Below, in pieces: positions 46,900-54,393 of a stretch of 64,000 bases of DNA. How positions within the stretch are numbered: the stretch's first letter is position 1; every line of letters begins with the position of its first letter. The stretch is from Actinomycetota bacterium (GTDB lineage: Bacteria; Actinomycetota; Acidimicrobiia; Acidimicrobiales; JAMCPD01). A program made the translations under genes and the position numbers. The stretch spans positions 1-64,000 of the forward strand of contig JAMCPD010000021.1 of the NCBI GenBank assembly GCA_023379935.1, given 5' to 3'. The notes below the pieces were generated by a model, which did no database searches, was not told the DNA's origin, and saw only the letters and a list, made by a program, of their open reading frames with translations.

Positions 46900-47838
46900 T
46901 TATATCGAACAAGGCTGTACCTGATCGTCCACGCAGCGTTCACACTCGGTTTCAATAGTGCAATGGTTTATACCAAACTTGTCTAAAATAACTTTTTTAA
47001 CGGAGTCCGATATCTTTTGGGCTTCTTCTAATGTGGGGTGCTGTTTCAATACTATATGTCCGGCCATGATCGGCAGTTCAGTCGTCAAACTCCAGACATG
47101 CACATCATGTACGTCTTGCACTCCCTGGACATTAGCTATAGTTTTTTCCAATACAGCCAGATCCAGGCCTTGAGGAGTGGATTCAAGCAGTATTTGCGTA
47201 CTTGAGCGCAACAGGATCCATGCTTGTATACCTATGATGACAGCTATTGCCATGGATACGGCTGGATCCACAAAATACCACCCTCCTTTGAGCCATATAA
47301 TCCCACCTGCAATGATGACGCCCAAAGAGGAGGCGGCATCACCGGCCATATGTAAAGTGGCTGTTCTCATGTTGAGGTCGTATTTTTTATGATTTAGATA
47401 CTTTTGTTCTTGGCCGGCTTGTTGTGCTTTTCGGGTATTATAGGATTTTTCCCATAACATGACGGTTGACACCGTGTTGATAGCCAGCGCGCCGGCTCCT
47501 ACTATTATCATGATTTTTGGATCAATACTTGATGGATGCAAGATACGCAGTATTGCTTCGTAAACGATCCATGTTCCAACTACTAAGATTAAAGCCGCGT
47601 TAGCCAAAGCTGCCAAGATTGTACTGCGGTGCAAACCGAAGGAGTGAGTTTTGGTAGGTGGTTTGAGTGTAAGTCTTACCGCTATCAAAGACACTATCAG
47701 TCCAGCGGCATCGGTTAAATTATGCCCGGCATCTGCAAACAAAGCCAGAGAATGGGCAATCAGCCCTGCGCTGGCTTCACCACCAAGCAGTATTATATTT
47801 AAGACAATAGCAGTGCCAAGTCGCTGTGAACGGTTCAT
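46900..47838 (-). CDS. Cation diffusion facilitator (zinc/cobalt/cadmium exporter type)
   Basis: The 312-aa protein is a CDF transporter of the ZitB/CzcD type. Helix II carries the metal site HSLALFADAGHNLTDAAGL, helix V the partner HMAGDAASSLGVI, and the C-terminal cytoplasmic domain has DVHDVHVWSLTTELPIMAGHIVL. A Cys-rich tail (TECERCVDDQVQPC) could add metal binding. It should export divalent metal by proton antiport. Its start lies 34 bp from the left inverted repeat of the adjacent P-type ATPase segment. Confidence 0.92.
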   Translation of the reverse strand: MNRSQRLGTAIVLNIILLGGEASAGLIAHSLALFADAGHNLTDAAGLIVSLIAVRLTLKPPTKTHSFGLHRSTILAALANAALILVVGTWIVYEAILRILHPSSIDPKIMIIVGAGALAINTVSTVMLWEKSYNTRKAQQAGQEQKYLNHKKYDLNMRTATLHMAGDAASSLGVIIAGGIIWLKGGWYFVDPAVSMAIAVIIGIQAWILLRSSTQILLESTPQGLDLAVLEKTIANVQGVQDVHDVHVWSLTTELPIMAGHIVLKQHPTLEEAQKISDSVKKVILDKFGINHCTIETECERCVDDQVQPCSI

Positions 47839-47871
47839 CTAATTAACTAGATTACTATTTATGAGGTCCTT

Positions 47872-47889
47872 TGTGTCAGGAAAGATGTC
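47872..47889. repeat. Left inverted repeat of a 5.2-kb segment
   Basis: TGTGTCAGGAAAGATGTC is the reverse complement, with one mismatch, of 53080-53097. The first 13 bases match exactly. Confidence 0.75.
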
Positions 47890-47932
47890 GCATTGAAATG
47901 TTGCCCAGAGCGGGTTGTGAAAAGGATAAATT

Positions 47933-48100
47933 GAAAATGACAGTTATCTAAACAAAGGACCCGACTTTATTTCAATTGACCCGGAAGACCTAAGAAAAGC
48001 AACCGAGAAAATCAACCACAGGTCAAGAAAGATACTAGGCTGGAAATCTCCTCATGAAGTGTACAATGGCATCAATATGAACTACACTCAATTAAAATAA
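47933..48100 (+). pseudogene. IS30-family transposase, C-terminal remnant
   Basis: A 55-codon frame, open after a TAA and without a start, reads YLNKGPDFISIDPEDLRKA, then INHRSRKILGWKSPHEVYNG. This matches the end of IS30-type transposases (KGTDF..., NxRPRKxLGWxTPxEVF). The conserved Pro of RPRK has become Ser (RSRK). The rest of the gene, including most of the DDE domain, is missing. Confidence 0.8.
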
Positions 48101-48184
48101 ATCGGATTAAAATGAATCGGATTGTACTTCGAAGTAGAATGCAAGTTAGGAAGAATTTCATGCGAATTTATTTGGGAGAAAATT

Positions 48185-48472
48185 ATGACACCTCAAACAA
48201 AACAAAGTCCAACTAAACAAAGTCCGGCTTCAAGAAGTTTAAATGAAAACTTCAGCTCATCAAACAGATCGGATAGTGATAGATATGTCCTACCCATAGT
48301 TGGAATTTCAGTTCCGGCAAAAATAGTTGAAAAGGGATTCCTCGCTGCACTTATTGGATCAGTGGCATTCGGAACTGTAGATCCGCCACTTGGTTTGCTT
48401 ATAGGTTCATCAGTACTGATAGCACGGCACAGAAAAATTCCAAATCTAATTAATATTTTCGGATCTGATTAA
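48185..48472 (+). CDS. Small membrane protein upstream of the CtpI-like ATPase
   Basis: The 95-aa protein begins at ATG 48185 behind GGGAG (48174-48178); the frame is open to 48122 but without support. The N-terminal 40 residues are Ser/Gln/Asn-rich with a repeated KQSP. Then come two hydrophobic segments (EKGFLAALIGSVAFG and PPLGLLIGSSVLIA). It lies 52 nt before the ATPase gene on the same strand and may be an accessory subunit. I do not recognise the family. Confidence 0.6.
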   Translation: MTPQTKQSPTKQSPASRSLNENFSSSNRSDSDRYVLPIVGISVPAKIVEKGFLAALIGSVAFGTVDPPLGLLIGSSVLIARHRKIPNLINIFGSD

Positions 48473-48524
48473 TATCTACAAACAGATTAAATTTATTAAG
48501 ACAAATTGCGGGAAGGATTAAAAT

Positions 48525-51500
48525 TTGGAGTTTAACCTCGTAAAAAATATACCTTCCCGCCTTTTTTCGGTTAATAGTGCGCTTAATCCGATAAAGCAGA
48601 TCAGTAATACCGTAACATCTTTTGGCACATCTATCGGTGCTGCCATCGGCGCTTCTGCAGGTGTCGGTCGTAAACACAGAAGAATTTGGAAAGGTAACGG
48701 CAGAGCTCATATCGAAGTCAAGGCGGTTCACAAAGAAGGAACCGAACACATTGCAAGAGATATTGAGACTTCTCTAAAAAAACTCAAAGGAGTTGATTGG
48801 GTCGAAGTTAACTCGGTATTGGGCAGAGTGGTTGTCGCATTTTCGGAGGGCAGCGATGTCGACATGGAAGATCTCGTAGATGCAGTAGAAGAGATCGAAG
48901 AAGCCCACGATATTCACAGGGAACGCTTCCCTCATGAACGTCCTGAACACCCCGGAGACATTGAACCGTTCAACCGAAACTTGTTCTCATTGTCAGCGGA
49001 CTTAGTTGGGATATCGGCAGGAATCCTCGGTCAAACTTTAAGAATAACGCCGATTCCGACCGAATTGGCCTCCGTAGTATCACTTATTCAAAATGAACCC
49101 CGACTCAGAAGGTTTGTTGAAAACAGATTTGGCATAGGATTTACTGACGTAACTCTTGGAATCTTGGATTCAATCGGTCAGGGTCTGTCGCAGGGTCCAT
49201 TGGGTTTGTTTGCAGACTCTACTCACAGAATAAGCAACCTGACTGAAATAAAGTCCAGACAAAATGTCTGGAAACAAAAAGAGCCAATCCTTGCAGGCAA
49301 AAAAGGCAGATTTTCCACAGAACCCTTGGCGCACCTGCCGCGTAAAAAACCTTTAAGAAGTGGCGCTATTGAAAAATATGCGGACATTGCGACGGTCGGA
49401 TCAATCGGGGCATTCGGAGCAGCCGCATTGATTACAAAAAATCCACGAAAATCTGCAAATTTAATAGTGGCCATGCTTCCAAAAGCTGCCCGATTCGGCA
49501 GGGAATCTTACGCAAGCCATTTAGACAGGCTCATCTCAAACAGAGGTGCGATAGTAATGGACGCTTCTACCTTGCGCAGGCTTGACAGGCTGGACAAGAT
49601 CCTAATCGACTCGGATGTTTTGTTAACAAACAGATGGCAGCTCAAATCGGTTCAAGCTATAGGCGGGTCTAACGAAGTTCAGATAACCAAGCAGGCAATA
49701 CATCTGTTCAATCCAAATTTTCCGAACAAAATAAAAATTTCCAGAAAATGGAAGATAGGCCCCCCCGAAAAAATATGTAACAGTTTGTCAAAACAGACCA
49801 AACAAATCATCAAACAAGAGTCATCGGGGCCCAATATCTGCTTGGGATTAAGCTTTGCAAATGAGCTTTGCGGGATTGTAACGATTGTTCCGGAATTAAA
49901 TCCCCTTGCTTCTGCACTGCTTGAGGCTGCAAAAGACGCAAAATTGGAAATTTATATCAGCGGGAAAAGAAACAAAGTTGCTCAGCTGCTGGAAATTCAG
50001 AATACGGTTTTGGGAGGTTCCAGGCTTTCGACTTCCGTAAGGCAACTGCAGGAAGATTCTAGCGGCGTTATGTTTGTAGGCAAAGGCGAACACAAAGCCG
50101 GACTCCGAACCGCAGACTGCGGAATCGGAATAATTGAAGGTGACGGCGACAAAGACAGTCCGATTCCGTGGGGTGCTGACATTATCATAAGCAATGACTT
50201 GGAACTGGTATACATATTGATAGAAGCTGTCAGGTATGCCAAAACGGTCAGCAAAACTTCCGTTACGCTTGCAGCTTTAGGTTCTTCGATAGGTGGTACT
50301 TGGGCGATGATCGGACCGGCAAGCGGAGCGGGCCGGCGGGCTATGCTGCCTGTTAACTTGGCGGCTTTGGCTTCGCAGGGATATGGATTCTTACAGGCTT
50401 TCAGTCTTAATAAAGCACACGTGCCGAAACCTCCTTCCAATGTAATGTGGCACTCTATGGAGATTGACGATGTCATTAAAGCTACCGGCAGTTCTAAATC
50501 CGGTCTTAATGAGTCCAAAGCCTCTCACCGACTTAACAAATCCGACTTTAAAGAGCCTGCATTAGCAAACAGATTTTTAAATGCTGTCGGAACCGAATTT
50601 GCCAACCCTATGACCCCGCTACTTGCAGCAGGAGCCGGTCTGTCAGCTGCAGTTGGATCGCTAAGCGATGCGGCTTTGGTAGTGGGAGTTACTGCCGCAA
50701 ACGCCTTAATCGGCAGCATTCAGCGTCTCAAAACAGATGCCTCGCTGAAACAGCTTATGTCAGCTACGGAATCAAAAGTTAACGTATTGAGAAACAATGC
50801 TTTAACTCTTGAACAGACAGCCAAAATTGTAGTCGGAGATATAATTGAGCTCGCCGATGGCGATGTGGTGCCGGCTGACTGCCGTATTATTGCCTGCGAA
50901 AATTGCGAAGTTGACGAATCAACTATCACGGGGGAAGCTTTGCCAGTAATTAAAAGCAGCGAACCGTCTGCGGGTTTGGAACTTGCGGATCGAACTTCCA
51001 TGCTCTATGAAGGCACCACGGTAGTCGGCGGAAAAGTTCAGGCTGTGGTAGTTGCTGCCGGCTCAGATACGGAAATCGGCAGACTCTTTTACGGTATCGA
51101 CTCTCCCGAAAGCGGAGTTGAAACCAGGTTAATCTCTCTGACTAAAGCTATACTTCCAATTACGATCTTAAGCGGTGTGGCAGTGACTTCCCTTGGTCTC
51201 ATTTGGAGAAGACCGATGAACGAAGCCGTAACATCCGGAGTTTCACTCACGGTAGCTGCCGTTCCCGAAGGACTTCCGATGTTGGCAACCATCGCTCAGC
51301 TCTCTTCAGCGCAGCGCCTTTCAAAACACAAAGCTCTGATACGCCATCCGAGAACAATTGAAGCTTTGGGAAGGGTAAATATCTTATGTTTTGACAAAAC
51401 CGGAACACTTACCGCTGGAAAAATCGAACTGCAGTCAGTGGCTGACGGCAAAACGGAGCTTTCCGTAAACAGTCTAAGATCCAAAAGCCACATCAATGTT

Positions 51501-53042
51501 CTGGTGTCTGCCCTTCGGGCAAGCCCCGATCAGGAAAACGATGACGAACTTCCTCACGCTACTGACAAAGCAATAATTAATACTGCTCAAAAAATAAACA
51601 TCTCAACTGATACTCGGATTGATCCGAAGACCCCAAACAGTTGGAAAACTATAGGTTCGCTTGGATTCGAACCTTCCAGGGGATTCTATGCTGTGGTCGG
51701 AAGGTGCAACAAAAATAAAACAAAGATTGTAGTTAAAGGCGCCCCCGAAATCATAATTCAAAGATGCAATTACTGGAAGAGTCCGAACGGAACCGTCAAA
51801 CTGAATAGGACGCTCAGACAGCGGCTAAATAAAGTCAGCGACGCTATGGCCACAAAAGGCCTAAGAGTATTGGCAGTTGCCGAAAGAGAATCTTCGGACA
51901 ACACTGTTATCGAAGATGAAAGAGTCTCAAATATGACTCTGCTTGGTTTTATAGGTTTGGCGGATTCGGTTAGACCGACTGCATTTGATGCAGTTGCTCA
52001 ACTTACAAAAGCCGGAGTCAAAGTAGCGATGATCACGGGAGACCATCCCTCTACCGCAAAAGCCATCGCAGAAGAGTTAAATATTTTCAGCGAGGGAAAA
52101 ATTTTAACAGGTTCTGAGATAGATTCGCTTAACGACGATGAACTCGACAGCGTAATCGAAGCCACAACTATCTTTGCCAGAGTTTCTCCGTCCCATAAAG
52201 TCAGAATCGTTAGCTCTCTTCAAAGAATAGGATTAACTGTGGCGATGACCGGAGACGGAGCAAACGACGCTGCGCCAATCAGGCTTTCAAGCGTCGGAAT
52301 TGCGTTGGGCAAGCACGGCTCTAAAGCAGCCTGCGATGCTGCAGATATTGTAATTACCGATGACAGACTTGAAACTATCGTAAATACAATTATCGAAGGA
52401 CGTGCGATGTGGTCGTCAGTTAGAGACGCAATAGCAATATTAATCGGGGGCAATGTCGGCGAGGTCGCATTTACGGTTGCCTCGACTGCAATAAGCGGAC
52501 AGTCTGCTTTGAATACCAGACAGTTCCTTTTGGTCAATTTAATGACCGACTTGCTTCCCGCTCTTAGCATTGCCTTAAAGCCACCTACGAAAAAAACTCC
52601 GGAAGAGCTTCTAAATGAAGGACCCGAAGCATCCCTCGGCTGGCCTTTGGCCCAGCAAATAATATTAAGAGCAGCTACAACTTCTACAGCAACGACGGCT
52701 GCCTGGCTGATCGGAAGAGGTACCGGAACTAAAAAGAGGGCAAATTCTATGGCACTTGCCACCTTAGTAAATACTCAGCTGGCCCAAACTGCCGTTTTAG
52801 GGGGCAAGTCTCCGATGGTACTTATATCTACTGTTGCATCTGCGGCAATTTTAGTTACAGTGATACAAACTCCCGTTTTGAGCCAATACTTTGGCTGCAC
52901 ACCCCTTGATCCGCTAGCCTGGTTTGTAGTTAACAGCTCGGCGGTTGTAGCAACCGGAACCTCGATTGTTGCCCCGAAAATAGTTTCATACTTGCTGAAA
53001 AACAGAACCGGTAAATCTGAGGAACTACAAACTCAAGATTAG
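48525..53042 (+). CDS. ctpI: CtpI-like double P-type ATPase (degenerate half fused to active half)
   Basis: The 1505-aa protein starts at TTG behind GGAAGGA. Residues 60-128 form an HMA-like fold without the CxxC metal site. Residues about 150-630 look like a decayed P-type ATPase: ILIDSDVLLT (361-368) replaces DKTGTLT, YISGKRNK replaces TGD, and FVGKGEHKAGLRTADCGIGI replaces GDGxNDAPAL...DVGIA. Residues about 680-1500 are an intact ATPase with TGEALPV (~803), AVPEGLP (~914), FDKTGTLT (~956), ITGD and TGDGANDAAPIRLSSVGIALG. It resembles mycobacterial CtpI in length and plan. The transported ion is unknown. It lies within an inverted-repeat-bounded segment. Confidence 0.85.
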   Translation: MEFNLVKNIPSRLFSVNSALNPIKQISNTVTSFGTSIGAAIGASAGVGRKHRRIWKGNGRAHIEVKAVHKEGTEHIARDIETSLKKLKGVDWVEVNSVLGRVVVAFSEGSDVDMEDLVDAVEEIEEAHDIHRERFPHERPEHPGDIEPFNRNLFSLSADLVGISAGILGQTLRITPIPTELASVVSLIQNEPRLRRFVENRFGIGFTDVTLGILDSIGQGLSQGPLGLFADSTHRISNLTEIKSRQNVWKQKEPILAGKKGRFSTEPLAHLPRKKPLRSGAIEKYADIATVGSIGAFGAAALITKNPRKSANLIVAMLPKAARFGRESYASHLDRLISNRGAIVMDASTLRRLDRLDKILIDSDVLLTNRWQLKSVQAIGGSNEVQITKQAIHLFNPNFPNKIKISRKWKIGPPEKICNSLSKQTKQIIKQESSGPNICLGLSFANELCGIVTIVPELNPLASALLEAAKDAKLEIYISGKRNKVAQLLEIQNTVLGGSRLSTSVRQLQEDSSGVMFVGKGEHKAGLRTADCGIGIIEGDGDKDSPIPWGADIIISNDLELVYILIEAVRYAKTVSKTSVTLAALGSSIGGTWAMIGPASGAGRRAMLPVNLAALASQGYGFLQAFSLNKAHVPKPPSNVMWHSMEIDDVIKATGSSKSGLNESKASHRLNKSDFKEPALANRFLNAVGTEFANPMTPLLAAGAGLSAAVGSLSDAALVVGVTAANALIGSIQRLKTDASLKQLMSATESKVNVLRNNALTLEQTAKIVVGDIIELADGDVVPADCRIIACENCEVDESTITGEALPVIKSSEPSAGLELADRTSMLYEGTTVVGGKVQAVVVAAGSDTEIGRLFYGIDSPESGVETRLISLTKAILPITILSGVAVTSLGLIWRRPMNEAVTSGVSLTVAAVPEGLPMLATIAQLSSAQRLSKHKALIRHPRTIEALGRVNILCFDKTGTLTAGKIELQSVADGKTELSVNSLRSKSHINVLVSALRASPDQENDDELPHATDKAIINTAQKINISTDTRIDPKTPNSWKTIGSLGFEPSRGFYAVVGRCNKNKTKIVVKGAPEIIIQRCNYWKSPNGTVKLNRTLRQRLNKVSDAMATKGLRVLAVAERESSDNTVIEDERVSNMTLLGFIGLADSVRPTAFDAVAQLTKAGVKVAMITGDHPSTAKAIAEELNIFSEGKILTGSEIDSLNDDELDSVIEATTIFARVSPSHKVRIVSSLQRIGLTVAMTGDGANDAAPIRLSSVGIALGKHGSKAACDAADIVITDDRLETIVNTIIEGRAMWSSVRDAIAILIGGNVGEVAFTVASTAISGQSALNTRQFLLVNLMTDLLPALSIALKPPTKKTPEELLNEGPEASLGWPLAQQIILRAATTSTATTAAWLIGRGTGTKKRANSMALATLVNTQLAQTAVLGGKSPMVLISTVASAAILVTVIQTPVLSQYFGCTPLDPLAWFVVNSSAVVATGTSIVAPKIVSYLLKNRTGKSEELQTQD

Positions 53043-53079
53043 TATAACTTTAAAATATTTTTTAGCTATGAAATTACCG

Positions 53080-53097
53080 GACAACTTTCCTGACACA
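53080..53097. repeat. Right inverted repeat of the 5.2-kb segment
   Basis: GACAACTTTCCTGACACA, partner of 47872-47889. The region 53043-53259 around it otherwise holds only short, unconvincing frames. Confidence 0.75.
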
Positions 53098-53259
53098 GGA
53101 GAAGAGAAAGGAGGTATACGAGCAAGAGCAGACCTGCAAATCTAAGACATTGGTCAAGGAATAAAATCAAATCATTTGCTCCGACAACACAACTAAAAGT
53201 TGGAGCCAAAACAAAAAAGACACTTGACCAATTGCCTAAGGCAAGTTAGAGTAGTTTAT

Positions 53260-54393
53260 GTGACAACGAGCTTGACAATTACCGAGTCGAACTGTCACAA
53301 AAAACCGGATATTCAAAAACTTACCCAAGTTGTTGAGCATTTTAACGTTCCGTCTAAGTTACTTGAGGCAAGACAGTTCGGCAATGGCCACTTGCACGAT
53401 ACCTATGCACTTTTATGTGCTCCATCGACTGGAAAACCACAGTGGTATGTTTTTCAACGCTTGCATCCGGTATTTAAAGATCCGGATGCCTTGATGGACA
53501 ACATAACAAGAGTTACATCTCATCAGCGGAATAAACACACCCGGTTGGAGGCGGTGGAGGTAGTACTTACCAAAGAAGCCAAAGCATATTTTGAAGATGA
53601 TGAAGGTAGGTACTGGCGCGGCTATGTAATGATCCTTGATGCAACTTCTTATGAAACTGTCACCGGGCCTATGCTTGCAAAGCAGGCAGGAATCGGGTTT
53701 GGCCGGTTTTTGTCTGATCTCAGTGACTTCCCCGATCCACCCCTGAAACAGACAATTGCTGGGTTTCGTGATTTGAAAGGTTACTTTGACAAGTTCACCA
53801 CTGTAGTTTTGGAAGATCCCTGTAACAGAACAACCCCGGCCCGTTCGGAGATTGATGCGATAGTAGATCTTGCCTCGCTAGTCGATAAAGCCGATATATC
53901 CAACAGAAAAAGTGGCCTTAAAAGACGCGTTGTGCATTATGATGCCAAACTGAACAATGTCCTTATAGATAACAGTACAGGAGTCGCCAGAGCAATAGTG
54001 GATTTAGACACAGTTAATAACGGGCTGTGTATTTATGATTTTGGAGATCTGGTGCGTACCGCAGCCTGTTATACACCTGAGGACCAAGAAGATGTAAGCC
54101 AAGCATCCTTAGACATTAATCTTTTTGAAGCTCTTTGTTCGGGTTGGCTGGAATATACCGCAGAACTTTTAATGCCGCCTGAACTGGAACTGCTTTGTTT
54201 CGGAGCACAAGCCATGACATACGAGGCCGCACTTCGTTTTTTAACTGATTATTTGCAAGGGGACATTTATTATAAGATCCAAAATCCGCAGCACAACCTG
54301 ATACGTTGTAGATCGCAGTTAGCTCTTTGTAACTGTTTGATCTCCAACCAAACGGCTATGGAAGACGTCATCCTGGCATGCCGCCCCAAGTAG
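53260..54393 (+). CDS. APH-fold kinase, N-acetylhexosamine 1-kinase-like
   Basis: The 377-aa protein (GTG 53260; the frame is open to 53200) is an aminoglycoside-phosphotransferase-fold small-molecule kinase. The Brenner-type motif is VVHYDAKLNNVLID (catalytic Asp and Asn), and the metal site is in AIVDLDTVNNGLCIYDFGDLVR. These and the N-terminal GNGHLHDTYALL loop resemble NahK-type N-acetylhexosamine 1-kinases. The adjacent convergent genes encode a beta-hexosaminidase and a sugar nucleotidyltransferase, which supports a GlcNAc/GalNAc kinase role (inference). The 3' ends of this gene and the GH20 gene overlap by 26 nt. Confidence 0.75.
   Translation: MTTSLTITESNCHKKPDIQKLTQVVEHFNVPSKLLEARQFGNGHLHDTYALLCAPSTGKPQWYVFQRLHPVFKDPDALMDNITRVTSHQRNKHTRLEAVEVVLTKEAKAYFEDDEGRYWRGYVMILDATSYETVTGPMLAKQAGIGFGRFLSDLSDFPDPPLKQTIAGFRDLKGYFDKFTTVVLEDPCNRTTPARSEIDAIVDLASLVDKADISNRKSGLKRRVVHYDAKLNNVLIDNSTGVARAIVDLDTVNNGLCIYDFGDLVRTAACYTPEDQEDVSQASLDINLFEALCSGWLEYTAELLMPPELELLCFGAQAMTYEAALRFLTDYLQGDIYYKIQNPQHNLIRCRSQLALCNCLISNQTAMEDVILACRPK

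Follow-up and report, generated by a model that had tools for sequence, protein, structure and literature searches.

In the window analysed here, a 64,000-nucleotide stretch of an actinobacterial genome, an acquired two-gene pump operon appears to sit inside the split, transposase-dead remains of an IS3-type element, where the 3′ stub of an IS30-type element and a stray IS3 tip in reverse orientation also lie. We put the probability of this reading at roughly 80%. To judge from the sequence, the bounds of the block are most likely the ends of one dead IS3-type element, at about 47868 and about 53283. The original prediction had taken an 18-bp inverted repeat at 47872 and 53097 as the bounds of the unit; the right end lies instead at 53107-53283 and had been missed.

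The inverted repeat itself is exactly where it had been placed. The sequence TGTGTCAGGAAAG at 47872-47884 (forward strand) has an exact second copy at 53085-53097 (reverse strand), and the pair extends to 47872-47889 and 53080-53097 with 17 of 18 bases matching. On its own, within 64 kb, such a pair is near chance: when comparable pairs (18 nt, at most one mismatch, at most 6 kb apart) were counted in order-1 Markov versions of the 64 kb, the mean was 0.33, and 5 of the 15 versions held at least one. The repeat gains its significance because the 18-mer recurs genome-wide and, in related genomes, corresponds to the left terminus of IS3-family elements. A pattern search of the genome to which the window belongs (1.9 Mb, 25 contigs), along the lines originally proposed for the 18-bp end, found 16 places that match TGTGTCAGGAAAG[A/T]TGTC with at most three mismatches, compared with 0 for the reversed pattern. 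These include, besides the window pair, two exact copies (C9:16080 and C9:36490) and one copy with 1 mismatch (C25:4900). The original prediction had held that a frequent 18-mer scattered at random would speak against a mobile unit; the 18-mer is indeed scattered in the genome, which goes some way against such a unit.

Outside this genome, an extended form of the motif, TGTCAGGAAAGATGTCGCATT (at most three mismatches), is present in 19 of 298 genomes of the same order, with one match for the reversed control. In G181:C274 the motif forms the left terminus of an element (L188/L099) that is intact and possesses both orfA and orfB, the latter scoring above the NCBIfam IS3 cut-off (NF033516), and G156:C217 carries a second copy of this element, with 77% DNA identity end to end. 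An intact insertion sequence with the same ends, which had been suggested as something to look for, thus exists in a related genome, but a search of the window's own genome revealed no transposase related to the IS3 element. IS3 copies are numerous in genomes of the putative source family. From these elements the left-end consensus is roughly YCCYY-N4-TCAGGAAAG[T/A]TGTCGCAT and the right-end consensus roughly CGGTRA-N3-TCAGG[A/C]TAGTTG[A/T]CGCAT. Judged by these left and right consensus sequences, both window repeats classify as left-type IS3 tips, so they are not two ends of one unit.

The left IS3-family end of the block (47868-47945, forward strand) comprises the left tip, including the repeat at 47872-47889, and the leader before orfA. 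It shows 83% identity over 75 bp to a relic in the same genome (C9:36369) and 77% over 61 bp to G150:C27, and aligns with the left ends of the complete-length elements L093 and L094 and of the intact L188. By searching the window with complete-length relatives we found the right-end piece (53107-53283, forward strand), which lies beyond the interval first described and holds the last orfB codons and the right terminal repeat. Aligned with the 3′ end of the G128:C91 element, which is of complete length, it is 74% identical over 178 bp (E 3.6e-27); the orfB C-terminus was detected by tblastn from 53097, and the right terminal tip, at about 53262-53283, is 85% identical over 46 bp to a right-end relic of the same genome (C16:41633). 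Terminal repeats, orfA leader and orfB C-terminus all have their counterparts in IS3-type elements from this order.

The two pieces are collinear and, because they share their orientation, the simplest reading is that a single IS3-type element has been split by a block of about 5.2 kb. Of that element just the first 75 and the last about 177 bp are retained; the transposase genes have been replaced by the block, with orfA and orfB missing except for the C-terminal orfB codons. By its sequence, what is left is the remnant of an element rather than a working one; the repeats are IS3-type ends that no longer look mobile. A target-site duplication of the 3-4 bp usual for IS3 elements could be made out neither at the window copy nor at the intact L188; the GAG triplet that adjoins both window tips could be chance.

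The right-hand repeat of the original prediction (53080-53097, reverse strand) is a reversed solo left-type tip, with a GTCAGGAAAG core and a C/T-rich outer flank like those of left ends. Its inner sequence, compared with IS3-family elements, has no IS3 similarity, and it sits 9 bp ahead of the aligned orfB tail. Solo left tips of about 18 bp, lacking the IS3 interior, are almost perfectly preserved at several other sites in the genome (L001, L005, L006, L007 and L008), where left tips are far more numerous than right tips; the only clear isolated right end of this IS3 group is that at C16:41633 (L228). Two further arrangements were seen. At C18:76534-76859 (L015:1501-1825) two inverted left-type tips lie 326 bp apart with C runs outside, resembling a miniature element, and at C2:49326 (L011, around 1496-1525) there is a perfect palindrome, CATCTTTCCTGgTACAGGAAAGATG, built on the left tip.

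Between the repeats, the IS30-type remnant, the small membrane ORF and the giant ATPase that had been described are all present. The first is a 47-aa C-terminal transposase fragment (47957-48097, forward strand) with the signature INHR..K.LGWKSPHEV, whose identity is 62% with the tail of a 232-aa ORF of G020:C39 and 60% with G128:C63. It gave no family HMM match, the IS30 name resting on the C-terminal signature, and an IS30 HMM search of the genome returned nothing. An IS30-type right terminus, GATTGTACTTCGAAGTAGAATGCAAG, lies at 48120-48145 (forward strand) and is unrelated to the 18-bp repeat. A terminus close to it follows the same transposase tail in relics of G096 and G206, while the window holds the sole copy in its own genome. 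Because the stub has this terminus of its own, it would belong to a different element and probably did not supply the transposase that acted on the 18-bp repeats. A plasmid search with the IS3 left end and with the IS30 fragment found nothing, as did exact-pattern scans of genome contigs and viral contigs and an Rfam search of 46.5-54.5 kb.

The small membrane protein gene (95 aa; 48185-48472, forward strand) is a conserved partner of the ATPase gene. In G156, G128, G096, G039 and G085 a homologous small ORF immediately precedes the ATPase gene, and a narrow HMM finds it in 10 of 35 loci. The ATPases of the window and of G156, a genome of another family, are 85% identical over residues 1-698 and 91% over 662-1505, as against 67% for BipA, the one gene used for the housekeeping comparison. 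With G039 and G085 the ATPase identity is 47-48% and that of BipA 74%. In the ATPase tree the window protein pairs with that of G156 (100/100), and the pair nests in the f61 group (likewise 100/100); the BipA tree unites G156 with its genus-mate G181 at 100/100, apart from the window genome. Codon usage and k-mer distance, proposed earlier as checks, were both computed: among the 31 window ORFs the ATPase gene deviates most in its synonymous codons, and the tetranucleotide distance peaks on the block, to which amino-acid bias may contribute. Trees, discordant identities and codon usage mark the block as foreign: the gene pair came by horizontal transfer out of another actinobacterial lineage or by way of one. 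DNA homology to G156 spans 48175-53044, which is just the two genes, although these bounds may merely reflect a faster divergence of intergenic DNA than of genes. No such repeats occur in the flanking sequence examined around the G156 copy.

The ATPase of the window has a GC3 of 0.428, already at host level. Since the GC3 of the G156 copy (0.32) resembles that of the BipA gene of G156 (0.345), the comparison suggests that the window genome was the recipient of the pump operon. Between the two ATPases dS is 1.3-2.0 and dN/dS 0.04; the pump is under strong purifying selection, and at such a dS G156 would be a cousin of the donor and not the direct donor. This split looks older than the IS remains. 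The genome has a single ATPase copy of this type, and a search of viral contigs with the ATPase gave nothing. The named relatives are mostly uncultured actinobacteria with the isolate names FK, DBS, TL and YP; from these names only, a mine-site (mine-drainage) origin is suggested.

The pump itself (48525-53042, forward strand) is a P-type ATPase of 1505 aa with a TTG start, recognised through Pfam and NCBIfam models, homologs, an internal duplication, and a structural model with Foldseek. A weak HMA-like segment (residues 74-124) is followed by a degenerate P-type core (about 330-634, window 49512-50426) that has lost the nucleotide-binding domain, and then by an active-looking type II core. 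The latter contains GDGANDAAP, and its best NCBIfam models are Ca2+/Mg2+ type II pumps. A heavy-metal (P1B) identity for this core was considered and rejected, as VPEGLP (PEGL) stands where P1B pumps have a CPx-type motif in TM4. The degenerate core is conserved in the homologs examined, where its phosphorylation loop reads about RRLDRVDTVVLDSxVLxTG instead of EALGRVDVLCFDKTGTLTEG. A profile-profile comparison aligned 294 collinear columns of it to a P-type core at E 3.2e-10, whereas shuffled controls gave 0.47 or worse, and its AF2 model (pLDDT 88.6) found P1B pumps as best Foldseek matches (E 2e-14).

Such an architecture, with a degenerate pump joined to one that looks active, assigns the protein on its motifs to the FUPA24 (CtpI/CtpH) kind, and the PEGL motif fits the CtpI-like assignment made at the outset. 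Chan et al. 2010 reportedly described FUPA24 members as fusions of a type I with a type II ATPase. FUPA24 members are twofold longer than typical pumps and have their motifs in the C-terminal half (PMC3573892), and CtpI/CtpH have been called uncharacterised (PMC10654040). The window pump shares with this family (TC 3.A.3.24; PMC3573892, PMC10654040) the double length, the C-terminal functional motifs and the degenerate N-terminal half, and with CtpI the PEGL motif, a likeness drawn from published descriptions. It differs in coming from an uncultured actinobacterium, in being, as it appears, horizontally acquired, and in being paired with a small membrane protein gene. The C-terminal core would probably move a cation of the alkali or alkaline-earth type, the N-terminal core being a putative non-catalytic pump relic.

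Both neighbours lie outside the block. On the left is a CDF cation exporter gene (46900-47838, reverse strand; Pfam PF01545/PF16916). The original prediction had seen the delivery of an ion pump beside a metal exporter; what is seen is adjacency only, the pump having PEGL rather than CPx and the CDF gene a host-like codon usage. On the right, an ORF for an APH-type phosphotransferase is listed at 53200-54393 (forward strand). Its true start is probably further downstream than the listed TTG (53200), since this codon falls inside the IS3 tail at 53200-53283.

How the operon came to lie in the IS3 remains may be pictured as follows. It would have entered through IS activity at this site, by nested insertions, because IS copies recombined with each other, or riding as a passenger in an IS shell; the insertion sequences would then have decayed while the pump was retained. 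The reversed tip at 53080-53097 would require one extra event. Of the original proposal of a passenger-carrying unit or its scar, the transposable-element ends, the foreign block and its enclosure by mobile-element remains are borne out, but the pair of 18-mers does not represent the left and the right end of a single unit.

The passenger route has a stronger version, in which the IS3 shell, minus its transposase genes, carried the 4.9-kb double-core pump operon between families of uncultured actinobacteria as a mobile insertion cassette, moved in trans by an active IS3 of the same or a former host. Left and right IS ends do enclose passenger genes without a transposase, as in MIC231 of Bacillus cereus as cited in PMC2266710; the ends are collinear around the cargo, which has the orientation of the transposase and was horizontally acquired, and genomes of the putative source family have many IS3 copies. 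MIC231, as far as that citation goes, is built on an IS231/IS4-type element, whereas the window unit is built on an IS3-type one, with debris of other insertion sequences and a movement that is only hypothetical. The block is a single copy in its genome, no empty site was found among the genomes compared, all of them from other families, no shell of this kind is seen around the G156 copy, an IS30 stub and a reversed tip lie inside, and the right end has diverged. No target-site duplication was recognised, though the intact L188 likewise has none. We regard a cassette as possible but rather unlikely; if true, an IS3 element would here have given rise to a mobile insertion cassette whose passenger is unusually large.

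Less probable still is a decayed composite transposon, in which two inverted IS3 copies flanked the operon and only their outer left tips, at 47872 and 53097, survive. Both tips are left-type and inverted, as expected of the outer ends of inverted copies, and closely bracket the foreign operon. Of the right copy, however, only 18 bp would be left, with its interior absent; a target-site duplication was not found, the same solo tips occur at many other places in the genome, and 53107-53283, with its orfB tail and right end, goes unexplained. As the main reading it was dropped once this collinear right end had been found and only one collinear IS3 copy was seen. That the repeats are a conserved dispersed motif, such as a regulatory site preceding genes that point outward, and the operon an ordinary native one is scarcely credible: both repeats do face outward upstream of the flanking genes, and the pair alone is near chance in the window, but intact IS3 elements elsewhere have this motif as their terminus, the operon phylogeny is discordant, and the IS3-end interior homology on both sides, including 53107-53283, contradicts this reading, which was discarded on that ground.

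The preferred reading, an acquired operon within one dead IS3 element, corrects which repeats truly bound the unit and has the IS debris marking the site of the pump. It would also be a clear case of a giant CtpI/CtpH-type pump, a kind treated mostly in work on mycobacteria, passing from one actinobacterial family to another, probably in mine-drainage settings, and staying under strong selection.
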